Assembly: GCA_002050435.1 (NCBI GenBank)
Contig: MWYV01000034.1
Location: forward strand, 22,988-86,987
DNA: 64,000 nucleotides
Direction: 5' to 3'
Source: Chitinophagales bacterium 33-2
Lineage (GTDB): Bacteria > Bacteroidota > Bacteroidia > Chitinophagales > Chitinophagaceae
The stretch's first letter is position 1, and every line of letters begins with the position of its first letter. Below are positions 1,513-50,510 of the stretch, in pieces. The notes under the pieces were generated by a model. The model worked only from the letters and a program-made list of their open reading frames with translations, did no database searches and was not told the DNA's origin. The position numbers were made by a program, and so were the translations under genes.

Positions 1513-1992
1513 AGGTACTGGTGTCAAATAGATCCAGGGTTTCTCACCAAAAGAAATTCCAGGCCTAATCTTATCACATTTGGGTGGCTGCCGCGCCTCA
1601 TTGCTCCTGTTTGTAACTTGAAGAATCATCATACCTAAGATGGAGCAATTCAGCGCCTCAGGACTTTTAAATAACCAGAGCGCGGGGTGTTGCACCTGTC
1701 TTATCATACGGAGGGCTCTCTTGCGCAATCACCCTAAGACAACTTGTAACCGATACTGCTCCGCATTGATTGCGCTTGAATTTTTGCCTGCCCACCGAAG
1801 CGAAGCGCAGGAGGGGCCACCTTTTTTTTCAAGAAAAAAGGTGGAAGATGCATTTATCATAGCGCTGCTGTCCGGCAAGAAACTCCATTAGGTTATTGCA
1901 ACTGCAAAATCTAAGGCCCGGTTTAAGTAATCATCAACAACGCCAGATCCATTGCGCGTTTCATCGAAATCAAATAATTTTCCCCGGACAGC
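1513..1992. repeat. Multi-stem interspersed repeat, family B, copy 1
   Basis: Shared with 33824-34303, 34494-34912 and partly 50324-50510; four inverted-repeat stems. Confidence 0.85.
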
Positions 1993-2178
1993 AATGATTG
2001 ACCATTGACCATTCACTGCTCTCCGGCATTGTGCATAAAGCAACGTGAGCAATAAAAACTGAGGATTTAATTGCTAATTTGCATATTTAATTTGAACTTT
2101 TTAACAGGTTAAACAAGGAGGTTGCCATTCACATAATTTTATCATTTGCGCCGCAGGAAATAATAGTAAATTCCTGCC

Positions 2179-33375: not shown

Positions 33376-33585
33376 GTAGTTACTGATGCTATTTACATGC
33401 CAGCATTCTGTAATAAGTAATTCAAGAGATCACTGTAATCGGTTGAAATAGAATGTAGAATAACATCCTCATTAAGAATTCACTGTATACTACAGGTTGA
33501 GTTAAAATGGCGGATTAGCCAAAGTTTTTAAAAACTTTTTATGGGAATGAAAAGAAGCCGTTTCAAAATGACATGAATGGGCGAT

Positions 33586-33627
33586 GGTCAATGGTCAATG
33601 GTCAATAGTGAATGGTCAATAGTGAAT
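33586..33627. repeat. Heptamer tandem array (GGTCAAT/AGTGAAT)
   Basis: ggtcaat x3, agtgaat, ggtcaat, agtgaat = 6 x 7 bp. Confidence 0.9.
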
Positions 33628-33737
33628 CATTTGGTGTCCGGTAAAAATCAAACATCACTTTTAGTTAAGCTATTTTGCCTCAGGCTGGCGGGTCTCGTAC
33701 CTGCCCCGCTGCTAAATTCCCGTGGTGACTAAAGCCA

Positions 33738-33820
33738 GGCAACAAAAAGGCTTCCCGCAGATTACGCAGATTTTCGCTGATTGGTATTCTGCTTTCATCA
33801 GCGCGATCTGAGGGTAACAA
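33738..33820. repeat. Family A unit
   Basis: gcttcccgcagattacgcagattttcgctgattggtattctgctttcatcagcgcgatctgagggtaa. Confidence 0.9.
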
Positions 33821-33823
33821 GGC

Positions 33824-34303
33824 AGGTACTGGGGTCAAATAGATCCAGGGTTTCTCACCAAAAGAAATTCCAGGCACATCATCTTATCACATTTGGGTGG
33901 TTGTGTGCGCCTTATTGCTCCTGATTTTTCCTAAGAAATCTTTAACCCTAAGGTGGAGCAATACAGCGCGAAGAACGATTGCACAATCAGATCGCATGGA
34001 GTTGCACCTGTTTTCATTTTTCGGTGCGCTCCCTTGCGCAATCATCCGAAGGTATCTGGTAAAAACAGACTGTTACGCATTGATTGCGCTTGAATTTTTG
34101 CCTGCCCACCGAAGCGAAGCGCAGGAGGGGCCACCTTTTTTTTCAAGAAAAAAGGTGGAAGATGCATTTATCATAGCGCTGCTCTCCGGCAAAGAAACTC
34201 CATTAGGTTATTGCAATTGTAAAATATAAGGCCCGGTAGAAGTAATCATCAACAACGCCAGAACCATTGCGCGTTTCGAAATCAAATAAATTTCCCCGGA
34301 CAA
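33824..34303. repeat. Family B multi-stem repeat, copy 2
   Basis: Same flanks and stems as copy 1, different loops. Confidence 0.85.
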
Positions 34304-34493
34304 CTGTGTTTCTGGATCACTTTTTTCTGGGGAAAGTTTTATAGCCTCAAATCAGTCGCTGAAATTCAGTGTGGGCTTGAAGGATGTTGTTTTTTTAAAA
34401 CCTAAGCCCCCTTATTTGGTTTGGAGAGTGATTCAATCACTATAGCTTAATTGAATTCTTTTGATTTTTAAGAATGCTCAGAGATTTTCTCTT

Positions 34494-34912
34494 ACAACTT
34501 TTGGGTGGCTGCCGCGCCTCATTGCTCCTGTTTGTAACTTGAAGAATCATCATACCTAAGATGGAGCAATTCAGCGCATCCAGACTTTTAAATAATCAGG
34601 ACGCGGGGTGTTGCACCTGTCTTATCATACGGAGGGCTCTCTTGCGCAATCATCCTAAGACAACTTGTAACCGATACTGCTCCGCATTGATTGCGCTTGA
34701 ATTTTTGCCTGCCCCCGAAGCGAAGCGCAGGGGGGCTCCACCTTTTTTTTTCAAGAAAAAAGGTGGAAGATGTATTTAAAATAGGTCTGCTGTCCGACAA
34801 AGAAACTCCATTAGGTTATTGCAATTGCAAAATCTAAGGCCCGGTAGAAGTAATCATCAACAACGCCAGAACCATTGCGCGTTTCGAAATCAAATAAATT
34901 TCCCCGGACAGC
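34494..34912. repeat. Family B multi-stem repeat, copy 3
   Basis: Near-identical to copy 1 from GGGTGGCTGCCGCGCC to CCCCGGACAGC. Confidence 0.85.
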
Positions 34913-35259
34913 AGTGTTTCTGGAATCACGACAGTTATTCTTTATTTATACCATTTCGGTCACAATAGTCAAATTCAAATTCATTATACCCGATAGGGTA
35001 TAGTTTAAATAAACAAAATCCCTACGCTTTCTAAAAAGTATCATATCCCAAATGCAGGGTTACAAGATGTGCATTAGACAAGTATTCCACGCGGCTTTTT
35101 ATATTAAGGCGGCACGCGCCTGCCCGCAAGGCAGACAATTAGAAAACCAAAAACGCTACAAAACTGTATTCTTCCCCATCTGTCAATCTGATGCATTATC
35201 TATTTTTTATATTCTTCCCTTGCTATTTTTAATTCTTATATTTAGCAAAAAACAGGCTG

Positions 35260-35682: not shown

Positions 35683-35835
35683 AGCTTAATGCTTCCTTTT
35701 CCTTCTACCCTATCCCCTCCTCACTGCTGTCTGGTAAAAAATCAAACATCAATTTTAAATAAGCTATTTTGCCTCAGGCCGCCGGGCCTCCTACCTGGCC
35801 AACAACCTTTTTGTTGCCTGTAGCCTTGAGAACAG

Positions 35836-36250
35836 GCAATAAAAAAGCCTCCCGCAGACTACACAGATTATCGCTAATTGGTCTTCTACGTTCATCAGCG
35901 CGATCTGCGGGCAATAAAAAAGCCTCCCGCAGACTACACAGATTATCGCTAATTGGTCTTCTACGTTCATCAGCGCGATCTGCGGGCAAAAAGAAAAGCC
36001 TCCCCCAGACTACGCAGATTATCGATGATTAGTCTTCTGCGTTCATCAGCGCGATCTGCGGGCAAAAAAAAGTTCTCCAGCAGATTACGCAGATTATCAC
36101 TGAATGGTCTTCTGCGTTCATCAGCGCGATCTGCGGGCAAAAAGAAAGGCCTCCCCCAGACTACGCAGATTATCGCTGATTGCTCTTCTACGTTCATCAG
36201 CGCGATCAGCGGGCAAAAAAAAGTCCTCCCGCAGATTACACAGATTTACA
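35836..36250. repeat. Tandem array of family A units (~75-bp period, five full + one partial)
   Basis: Unit starts at 35846, 35921, 35997, 36071, ~36147, 36222. Confidence 0.95.
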
Positions 36251-36385
36251 GCAAAGGAATAACAAAAACTGATGTTTACTGACGGGCTTTTATTTACCAC
36301 TCATGTAAATTTTCAAAAAGAAATCTACTCTTATAATTTATATCGACGAAAGCTGTCGTAATTTAAGGTTATAAACCAACTAGGC

Positions 36386-38786: not shown

Positions 38787-38918
38787 AGTTGTAATTTTTA
38801 TTGTTAGCTTAAACTTTTTTCTCTCTATACAAGTTTGGTGCCCCGAGATGCTATAAGCGCGACAGCAAGTGAAATTTTTTTTCTTTGTGGCTGAGATTGT
38901 TGCTTCTATATGAACCAG

Positions 38919-38957
38919 TTCAACAACTTTTCAACCATTGTTAAACAACTATTCAAC
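38919..38957. repeat. 11-bp-period tandem array (TTCAACNAYTR)
   Basis: ttcaacaactt ttcaaccattg ttaaacaacta ttcaac. Confidence 0.9.
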
Positions 38958-38967
38958 TGAATAAAAA

Positions 38968-39058
38968 GTTTTGCCGCAAAGGCGCGAAGGTGCAAAGAAT
39001 TAAACGCAAGTTTTGGAACCACGGAGGCACAAAGAACACAGATATCCACGGAGGGTAC
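38968..39058. repeat. Interspersed repeat (CCGCAAAGGCGCGAAGG ... CCACGGAGGCACAAAGAACACAGA)
   Basis: Duplicated at 39127-39199. Confidence 0.85.
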
Positions 39059-39063
39059 AACTA

Positions 39064-39113
39064 TTCAACCATTGTTCAACAACTGTTCAACCACTGTTCA
39101 ACAACTATTCAAC
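39064..39113. repeat. 11-bp-period tandem array
   Basis: ttcaaccattg ttcaacaactg ttcaaccactg ttcaacaacta ttcaac. Confidence 0.95.
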
Positions 39114-39126
39114 TGAATTTAGTTTT

Positions 39127-39199
39127 TTTGCCGCAAAGGCGGGAAGGCGCAAAGAAGGAACCACGGAGGCACAAAGACACAGAGATTTCACGGAGGGTA
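39127..39199. repeat. Second copy of the CCGCAAAGGCGGGAAGG / CACGGAGGCACAAAGACACAG repeat
   Basis: Direct duplicate of 38968-39058. Confidence 0.85.
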
Positions 39200-39287
39200 T
39201 TCGACAACTGTTCAACCTCTATTCAACCATTGTTCAACAACTGTTCTACAACTGTTCAACAACTGTTCAACAACTGTTCTACCATCT
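39200..39287. repeat. 11-bp-period tandem array, eight units
   Basis: ttcgacaactg ttcaacctcta ttcaaccattg ttcaacaactg ttctacaactg ttcaacaactg ttcaacaactg ttctaccatct. Confidence 0.95.
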
Positions 39288-39698
39288 ATCCATACACAAA
39301 TAAAAATCCCCTCTGAAGAGAAGGGATTATTATTTAAGGCGAGAATTTTTTAATTTTAAATTCTTTTCATAGTCGGACGCCTTTTGCTTTTCAAAGGATT
39401 GGATAGGATTGCGGTTTGACCCGCGGATTCTCTTAGGGTTTGGATAAAAACGGGCTCATTTCATGGATATTGGAGAAATTGATTTTTACCTGGTCTTTTC
39501 ATGGAATTTGGATAGTTGGTTTTGGTTTTCATTGGATTGGGTATCGATCAATTTCTAATACAAATCTAAGGTGGATAATCAGTCTGTGCAATTGGGCTCT
39601 TACCCTATTTTTCCAATATGGTATTTACTTAGTGCCTCGTAAGAAACCCAATAAGGCATTAGAAAAATTACAGAATAAACATGCGTAGATCTACGAAT

Positions 39699-49355: not shown

Positions 49356-49978
49356 TGGATAAAAATCTTATTCTGATCCTTGCACCACACACCGATGACG
49401 GCGAACTTGGTTGTGGTGGCAGCATTGCAAAATTTGTAAGAGAAGGCAAAAAAGTCACTTATGTAGCCTTTTCAACCTGCGCACAGTCCCTGCCTAAGGA
49501 ACATCCTTCAAATGCACTTGAAGAAGAGTGCAGAAAGGCTACTTCCGCACTCGGTGTGCATGAAACCATTTTTTTTGATTTTGAAGTACGCAAACTTCTA
49601 GACAACAGGCAGGCAATTCTCGAGGAATTATTAAAGATCAACCATCATTTCCAACCTCACCTGGTTTTATTACCTGCCAGGCATGATGTTCACCAGGATC
49701 ACCAGTCCGTATATGCCGAAGGAATGCGTGCATTTAAAAATGCCAGTATCCTTGGCTATGAATTGCCATGGAACAACACCCGGTTCCAGCCCAATTATTT
49801 TGAACAGATTTCAGAAGAAGATCTTTCTAAAAAAATAAAGGCTTTAAAAGAATACAAAACCCAGGTTGGCCGTTCCTACATGAATCCTGAATTTATCCGC
49901 TCACTCGCTGTTGTAAGAGGCATTCAATGCAACACCATTCTTGCGGAGGCTTTTGAAGTTTATAAAATGGTCAAATAG
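49355..49978 (+). CDS. PIG-L/LmbE-family deacetylase
   Basis: LAPHTDDGELGCGGSIAKF, PARHDVHQDHQSVY. Confidence 0.9.
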   Translation: MDKNLILILAPHTDDGELGCGGSIAKFVREGKKVTYVAFSTCAQSLPKEHPSNALEEECRKATSALGVHETIFFDFEVRKLLDNRQAILEELLKINHHFQPHLVLLPARHDVHQDHQSVYAEGMRAFKNASILGYELPWNNTRFQPNYFEQISEEDLSKKIKALKEYKTQVGRSYMNPEFIRSLAVVRGIQCNTILAEAFEVYKMVK

Positions 49979-50012
49979 TCAATGGTCAATAGATCAATGG
50001 TCAATAGATCAA

Positions 50013-50150
50013 TGCTGTCCGGGGAAAAATCTAACATCAGTTTTAATTAAGATTTTGCCTCAGGCCGGCGGGCCTCGTACCTGCCCCGCTGCTGAATTCC
50101 CCGTGGTGATTGACTTTTGAACATTGACTATTGACTTGACTAAAGCCAGG
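50013..50150. repeat. CTGTCCGG-leader repeat (GCTGTCCGGGG..AAAATCTAACATCA..GCCTCAGGCCGGCGGGCCTCGTACCTGCCCCGCTGC)
   Basis: Also at ~33633-33735 and ~35725-35830. Confidence 0.85.
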
Positions 50151-50157
50151 CAACAAA

Positions 50158-50305
50158 AAGGCCTCCCGCAGATTACGCAGATTTTCGCTGATTGGTATTC
50201 TGCGTTCATCAGCGCGATCAGCGGGCAAAAAAAAGACCTCCTCATGATTACCCAGATTTTCGCTATTGTGGTCTTCTGCGTTCATTCGCACGATCTGCGG
50301 GCAAG
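50158..50305. repeat. Family A repeat, two tandem units
   Basis: cctcccgcagattacgcagattttcgctgattgg...ctgcgggcaagg. Confidence 0.9.
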
Positions 50306-50323
50306 GCACATCATCATAAAACA

Positions 50324-50510
50324 TTAGAATGGTTATTTGCGCCTTATTGCTCCTGATTTTTCCTAAGAAATCTTTAAACCTAAGGTGGAGCAATACAGCA
50401 CGGAGAACCCTTGCACAACCAGATCGCATAGAGTTGCATAGGCTTAATTCAATGCCTCCTCCACCCTTTCAGGAAAAAAGGAGGAAGATGTTAAGCAATG
50501 AAGAAATAAT
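50324..50510. repeat. Family B multi-stem repeat, truncated copy 4
   Basis: gcgccttattgctcctgatttttcctaagaaatcttt..aaggtggagcaatacag; shares loop subtype with copy 2. Confidence 0.8.

Follow-up and report, generated by a model that had tools for sequence, protein, structure and literature searches.

MITEs are usually viewed as empty shells that are kept only by their ends, and here I will discuss a family of them from Flavisolibacter (Chitinophagaceae) with a conserved interior. Among the described systems, IS4-family MITEs likewise have the ends of an IS4 element, target duplications of the ~10 bp that are characteristic of IS4 elements (PMC2266710) and no transposase gene, but the Flavisolibacter elements differ by a large, independently conserved structured module which is absent from the autonomous IS and also occurs in elements with another terminal inverted repeat (TIR) or with none detected. 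A second comparison is with the ENE elements of transposon RNAs, such as that of Arabidopsis Evade, whose triple helices are described as increasing, in plants, the stability of retrotransposon RNA and its mobility (PMC12501189); the module would likewise have a U-rich strand occupying an A-U helix groove within mobile-element sequence, although its triple helix is only predicted, and it differs in being bacterial, in using an intramolecular A-tract instead of a poly(A) tail and in having no sequence relation. The REP/RAYT repeats (GTAG- and CGTC-tagged; PMC3733652) are also palindromic, multicopy and intergenic, but they are short tagged palindromes of 20-40 nt, against ~300-680 bp for the Flavisolibacter elements, and both architecture and mobiliser differ. 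A Porphyromonas gingivalis MITE with an internal minisatellite (PMC4596501) is also a Bacteroidota MITE with internal repeats, to which the satellite and heptamer arrays beside the present elements may be likened. Integron attC sites border cassettes in arrays, whereas the repeat copies are dispersed singly, though their palindromes too are hypervariable with conserved ends. In the order of its parts the module resembles the pseudoknot of telomerase RNA, in which stem 1 is followed by a U-rich loop and then by stem 2, and a similar X-L1-Y-X'-Y' repeat may occur in Proteobacteria. No description of the module was found in the open literature searched, most subscription papers being outside the reach of that search, and the comparison with Rfam gave no match in the analysed DNA and, across 31 loci with the module, nothing plausible at E<1.

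The DNA in question, which I will call the window, is a stretch of 64,000 nt from a Flavisolibacter draft genome (G000; 3.01 Mb in 76 contigs) in which a whole-genome search returned 51 BLAST matches to the first copy of the repeat; the genus was recognised by scanning named genomes with a pattern. Contigs end in or next to repeat copies in ten cases (C62, C54, C51, C39, C40, C41, C56, C27, C18 and C7), and since the repeat thus breaks the assembly, its copy number is probably underestimated. A first-pass annotation, made from the window alone, had reported copies at 1513, 33824, 34494 and, partially, 50324 (repeat families D4-D7), and their starts are real, but the true boundaries are wider and all lie on the plus strand. 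Copy 1 (1509-1996) retains its right TIR (1977-1996, minus strand), while no left TIR was found for this element; copy 2 (33629-34308) is complete from TIR to TIR at 680 bp (TIR pair at L004 640-1319); and copy 3 (34318-34916), complete at 599 bp (L004 1329-1927), is an insertion that sits only 9 bp beyond the end of copy 2, between target duplications at 34309-34317 (TTTCTGGAT) and 34917-34925 (TTTCTGGAA) that are identical at 8 of 9 positions. Copy 4 (50011-50490) keeps its left TIR and stem i, whereas its stem iii is decayed and its right end lost, and a fifth, truncated element (35722-36300, end approximate) consists of the left TIR and arm followed by a 75-bp satellite. An array of the heptamer TGGTCAA at 33585-33628 adjoins copy 2, with similar arrays at 49968-50010 and 1997-2013. 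What had been taken for a fourth structural stem (iv), with the right TIR as its 3' arm in copy 1, arises where the terminal inverted repeat pairs with a TIR-like sequence inside the element, and does not belong to the module. As had been stated, no convincing protein is encoded: there is no coding gene, no ORF of 120 aa inside copies 2 and 3 and no transposase gene in the elements. The aligned copies fall into two subfamilies, told apart by their 5' arms and by the loops of both stem i and stem ii, in agreement with the two loop versions of stem i that had been noted in copies 1/3 and 2/4 and with the difference in loop ii between copies 1 and 2; copy 1 is a mosaic of both, with a copy-2-type 5' arm and a copy-3-type module, and this recombination accounts for the loops that had seemed exchangeable.

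The outermost conserved sequence of the elements is the inverted repeat CACTGYTGTCCGGKRAAA, which occurs with at most one mismatch at 66 sites in G000 compared with 0 for a reversed-pattern control, and paired sites enclose elements of 198-740 bp, those of ~600-680 bp being complete window-type MITEs. The check for target-site duplications that had been proposed at the outset gave a sharp peak at 10 bp in the flanks of 24 elements (56% identity versus 46% permuted, 0/1000 permutations), and a perfect duplication, ATTAATTAAT, is present in L010. A potential partner comes from the sister species F. ginsengisoli, where an IS of 1,406 bp (L326) has ends (CACTACTGTCCGGTAAAAATCAA) that match those of the window MITEs almost base for base, a 9-bp duplication (CTCCCGACT) and a 417-residue frame matching DUF4372 (PF14294), DDE_Tnp_1 (PF01609) and NCBIfam IS4_1 (NF033592; 2.5e-64), with the YREK motif visible in YKKRWQIELLFKRIK; no copy of this IS with such ends turned up in the draft genome to which the window belongs. 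Given the shared ends, the ~10-bp duplications, the IS4 partner and the lack of a transposase gene inside, the window repeats are non-autonomous, IS4-type MITEs derived from an IS4-family element, and the near-identical ends of the F. ginsengisoli IS explain their mobility. The module is absent from this autonomous IS, whose frame spans nearly its whole length and so leaves no room for it; a match to an ordinary IS end, which was to have refuted the idea of a structured repeat, is thus found at the ends of the elements, yet not in the module. One could still argue that these are palindromes moved by REP-associated tyrosine transposases, as RAYT genes are present in 14 of the 19 genomes of the genus, but at the six RAYT loci examined the neighbouring palindromes are different ones, short and of the GTAG type, and not the module, and module copies also occur in genomes without RAYT matches (e.g. 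G008), so that this explanation is largely refuted and retains next to no credibility.

IS4-type MITEs with CACTGYTGTCCGGKRAAA ends are not the only carriers. In G145 the module lies inside MITEs with a different TIR, TGACTATCCGGATAWAGGAAAC, which occurs at 93 sites on each strand (0 in the control), and with duplications of 11 bp (72% versus 45% identity, 0/1000 permutations), and this TIR also bounds module-free MITEs of 129 bp in the same genome. That the module simply inserted into the 129-bp MITE was considered and rejected, as the two share essentially their TIRs only and no empty site was seen. The F. longurius copies, numbering 40 or more, have no detected TIR, nor do those of most other genera, and at most loci outside G000 and G145 the TIR was no commoner than in the control. 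At least two types of TIR have therefore borne the module, although these account only for the copies in G000 and G145. A 360-bp MITE subfamily in G145 (L311, L315) has a shared insertion of ~49 nt that interrupts the 3' arm of stem iii and occurs more than once.

The module itself is ordered as stem-loop i, the motif GTGCGCTGGCC, stem-loop ii and a predicted H-type pseudoknot. A search of 60 relatives with copy 1 gave no full-length match; what did match, in four genomes of the same genus, was confined to 30 bp at and about stem iii, and these matches lie within a diverged yet colinear repeat. Covariance models were built from relatives only, with no G000 sequence: R1 covers stem i and R2 runs from stem ii to stem iii, both with a short calibration, so that their E-values are rough. 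R1 recovers all four window copies (E 1.6e-7 to 2.4e-4) and R2 recovers copies 1-3, so that, with the 51 matches in G000, the family is more than a chance resemblance. On the plus strand, stem-loop i is at 1593-1656 in copy 1 (arms starting at 1593/1642; R1 match 1588-1666, E 2e-7), 33907-33969 in copy 2 (33907/33955; E 4.5e-6), 34514-34577 in copy 3 (34514/34563; R1 match 34509-34587, E 1.6e-7; folding z -3.3) and 50339-50399 in copy 4 (50339/50387; R1 match 50341-50399, E 2.4e-4). Stem-loop ii follows at 1723-1775 (arms GCGCAATCA/TGATTGCGC, starting at 1723/1767), 34036-34089 (34036/34081; R2 match 34024-34126) and 34644-34696 (34644/34688; the R2 match, 34691-34770, spans the 3' part) in copies 1, 2 and 3, also on the plus strand; the fragment 34647-34709 of copy 3 folded with a z of +0.95 because this range omitted the start of the stem ii 5' arm.

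R2 reaches well beyond the genus of origin, with matches in 87 of 249 Chitinophagaceae genomes and 54 of 104 genera (E<=1e-4), and in 12 of 398 genomes at the level of the phylum (E<=1e-5). Stem i is present in only 8 of 30 loci, in Flavisolibacter and a few relatives, and the core is consequently stem ii with the 3' module. In genera such as those represented by G106, G254 and G122, copies share ~100-150 nt while their flanks are mostly unrelated; the module is separate from, and much older than, its MITE carrier. Neither this spread, nor the TIR and duplication anatomy, nor the pseudoknot had been noticed in the first-pass annotation. Within the genus, matches number 41 (G015) and 17 (G006) in F. 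longurius, with others in G014, G018, G001, G008, G009 and G016. Copy number differs strongly between sister species, and this speaks against a cis-regulatory element, a terminator or a stabiliser of mRNA 3' ends, dispersed to the benefit of host genes. Most copies are intergenic, only 2 of 55 lying within a long frame, and there is a slight excess downstream of same-strand genes (33 versus 21), as such an element would have it, but this excess is not significant (p 0.13), the other side is even (27 versus 27) and stem iii is followed by A and not T; as the elements show no significant preference of orientation relative to the genes beside them, a role as terminator or 3'-UTR is disfavoured, and I regard it as very improbable. 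Two pattern scans of viral contigs, which might have pointed to viral spread, found no module. In G237 (L262, L264, L266) direct repeats offset by ~240 bp precede the module and the shared stretch is up to ~950 bp, and in other Bacteroidota families (L294-L301) there is often a longer stem ii whose apical part is rich in G (GCGGGGTGG..GGAAGC), which may be a fuller form of the module.

The constant stems and variable loops that had first suggested selection on structure were those of one genome and as such are not covariation, but the covariation is there once other species are considered. In 82 distinct sequences, 91.8% of the positions of stems ii and iii are paired and double changes are seen at 19 of the 20 pairs, with a covariation score of 0.618 compared with 0.173 when shuffled (0/500) and at most 0.114 when slid; stem iii alone is 98.5% paired with double changes in 9 of 10 pairs, and stem i scores 0.209 against 0.058 (0/500). 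Selection on structure is thereby supported, and the absence of significant covariation that was to have refuted it does not apply, while models from other species recover the window copies. Moreover, the linker X, immediately downstream of stem ii, and the stem iii loop X' are complementary, CTTGAA/TTCAAG in the window and CTTGAC/GTCAAG, CTTGAT/ATCAAG, CTTGG/CCAAG, TCGCC/GGCGA or TGCCC/GGGCA elsewhere, a complementarity reached by 0 of 2000 permutations, and when a pattern with one X/X' pair left free was matched in 68 of 398 Bacteroidota genomes, the free pair was Watson-Crick in 91 of the 102 distinct matches listed versus 44 expected. The X/X' helix crosses stem iii and hence makes an H-type pseudoknot, so that the 3' module is, as read from covariation, a predicted pseudoknot with both crossing helices conserved across Bacteroidota. 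It should be kept in mind that the R2 structure guided the fitting of the alignment (A6), with X/X', loop 1 and the free pair lying outside that model, and that the permutation tests ignore the relatedness of the sequences. In the window the putative pseudoknot occupies, on the plus strand, 1775-1844 in copy 1 (X CTTGAA 1775-1780; stem iii 1817-1844; X' TTCAAG 1828-1833; with an insert hairpin at about 1787-1815), 34089-34158 in copy 2 (34089-34094; 34131-34158; 34142-34147) and 34696-34766 in copy 3 (34696-34701; 34738-34766; 34750-34755). The CCTCC..GGAGG of copy 4, once offered as a possible compensatory change, does pair (50458-50484, plus strand), but this copy is decayed, its stem ii, pseudoknot loop and X' being lost. 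A class with a CTAGAC (or similar) linker and a GGGGCAATGCC loop has no clear X/X' pairing (L176, L223, L233, L238, L240, L242); it forms a second class of 3' module and may use another tertiary contact.

Between the two pseudoknot helices lies the T-rich loop 1, and the length of its T-run follows that of the A-run in stem iii (Spearman rho 0.74, n=75; 0.71 on 43 distinct combinations), the two being within 1 nt of each other in 93% of cases (0/5000 permutations). Where the A-tract has an internal G, loop 1 has a C in parallel register in several modules (TTTTCTTT facing AAAAGAAA; TTTTCCTTT facing AAAAGGAAA), and of the asymmetric cases that are informative about register, 7 of 8 favour parallel and one (L249) is against. 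Parallel C/G matches together with run-length tracking are the pattern that U.A-U and C+.G-C triples would require, and loop 1 probably runs along the stem-iii A-tract in U.A-U (and C+.G-C) triples, though the evidence is correlative and a triple helix in solution is inferred. The whole structure could be considered a mere by-product, with hairpins arising from nested insertions and gene conversion in neutral MITEs; mosaic copies exist, a nested insertion was seen and conversion could homogenise arms within one genome, but compensatory changes in 19 of 20 pairs, a crossing X/X' helix and the matching of loop 1 are not expected from conversion or nesting, and this possibility is therefore improbable.

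A selected fold raises the question of which nucleic acid does the folding. G.U pairs outnumber A.C mismatches by 37 to 7 (23 to 7 without the loop-closing pair), whereas a double-stranded cruciform would give about equal numbers, and so the strand as written is the folding one, whether as RNA or as ssDNA, and a cruciform is disfavoured by these pair counts. The initial suggestion of RNA or folded ssDNA thus gains a strand, with both forms compatible with the counts. If the module worked as ssDNA, one strand would fold in replication or transposition and be bound by a transposase or host protein, like the ends of IS200/IS605; G.T is tolerated there too and would fit the strand bias, the carriers are mobile DNA, and same-strand ssDNA could satisfy the structural tests that RNA does. 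DDE/IS4 transposition, however, uses double-stranded ends, the Y1 transposases examined in Flavisolibacter carry other REPs, and the module is internal and not at the element ends, which leaves ssDNA unlikely but the rival most deserving of attention.

With the transposition anatomy, strand-specific structural conservation, pseudoknot covariation and family-wide spread observed, I consider it probable, if by no great measure, that these are MITEs of ~600-680 bp, with CACTGYTGTCCGGKRAAA ends and moved by IS4, that carry an older module, most likely a transcribed RNA with a pseudoknot and probable triples and with a protective or factor-binding role; transcription, the triple helix in solution and the function are all inferred. 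An IS4-family transposase acting in trans would recognise the ends, move the MITEs and leave 10-bp duplications, the module would be transcribed as RNA, its knotted 3' end would protect or identify the RNA of the element, or bind a factor in trans, and the module would have spread by riding on mobile elements. The protective role is proposed because of the analogy with the ENE triple helices of plant retrotransposon RNA. More tentatively, and with my doubts outweighing my confidence, this may be an unrecognised, Bacteroidota-wide class of structured RNA, a hairpin with a triple-helix pseudoknot riding different transposons, and the bacterial counterpart of eukaryotic transposon-RNA triple-helix stability elements. 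The secondary structure and crossing helix of an internal module of ~100 nt have been kept in at least 54 genera despite turnover of the primary sequence, and this implies selection on something beyond what MITEs are expected to possess. Should the module be RNA, it would provide a tractable bacterial system for the way in which transposon RNA escapes decay, and models R1/R2 would define a new RNA family with which many Chitinophagaceae copies would be annotated.

Several further features were observed in and around the elements. The Flavisolibacter RAYT (Y1) genes (L215-L220) have short palindromes of their own, e.g. TGTCCCATAGGGACAT..GGTAG, and elsewhere in G000 (C20; L089 1586-2885) another IS4-type element, with ends CACTAGCGTCCCGTTTAAA, a 9-bp TSD (GTGATTGAC) and a reading frame broken by TAG, is inserted in a MITE copy. 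In the right arm of copy 1 (1870-1984, minus strand) a short open frame (FDFDETRNGSGVVDDY..RALDFAVAIT-like) reads from the right TIR towards the interior; copies differ in it by an indel of 3 nt, and it may be a gene remnant. A satellite of 75-76 bp (CTCCCGCAGATTACGCAGATTTTCGCTGATTGGTCTTCTGCG...) is arranged in tandem at 35823-36219 and occurs as single units beside MITE left arms at 1413-1507, 33726-33820 and 50137-50231, and 11-bp tandem repeats resembling CAACTATTCAAC form about three blocks at 38905-39304.
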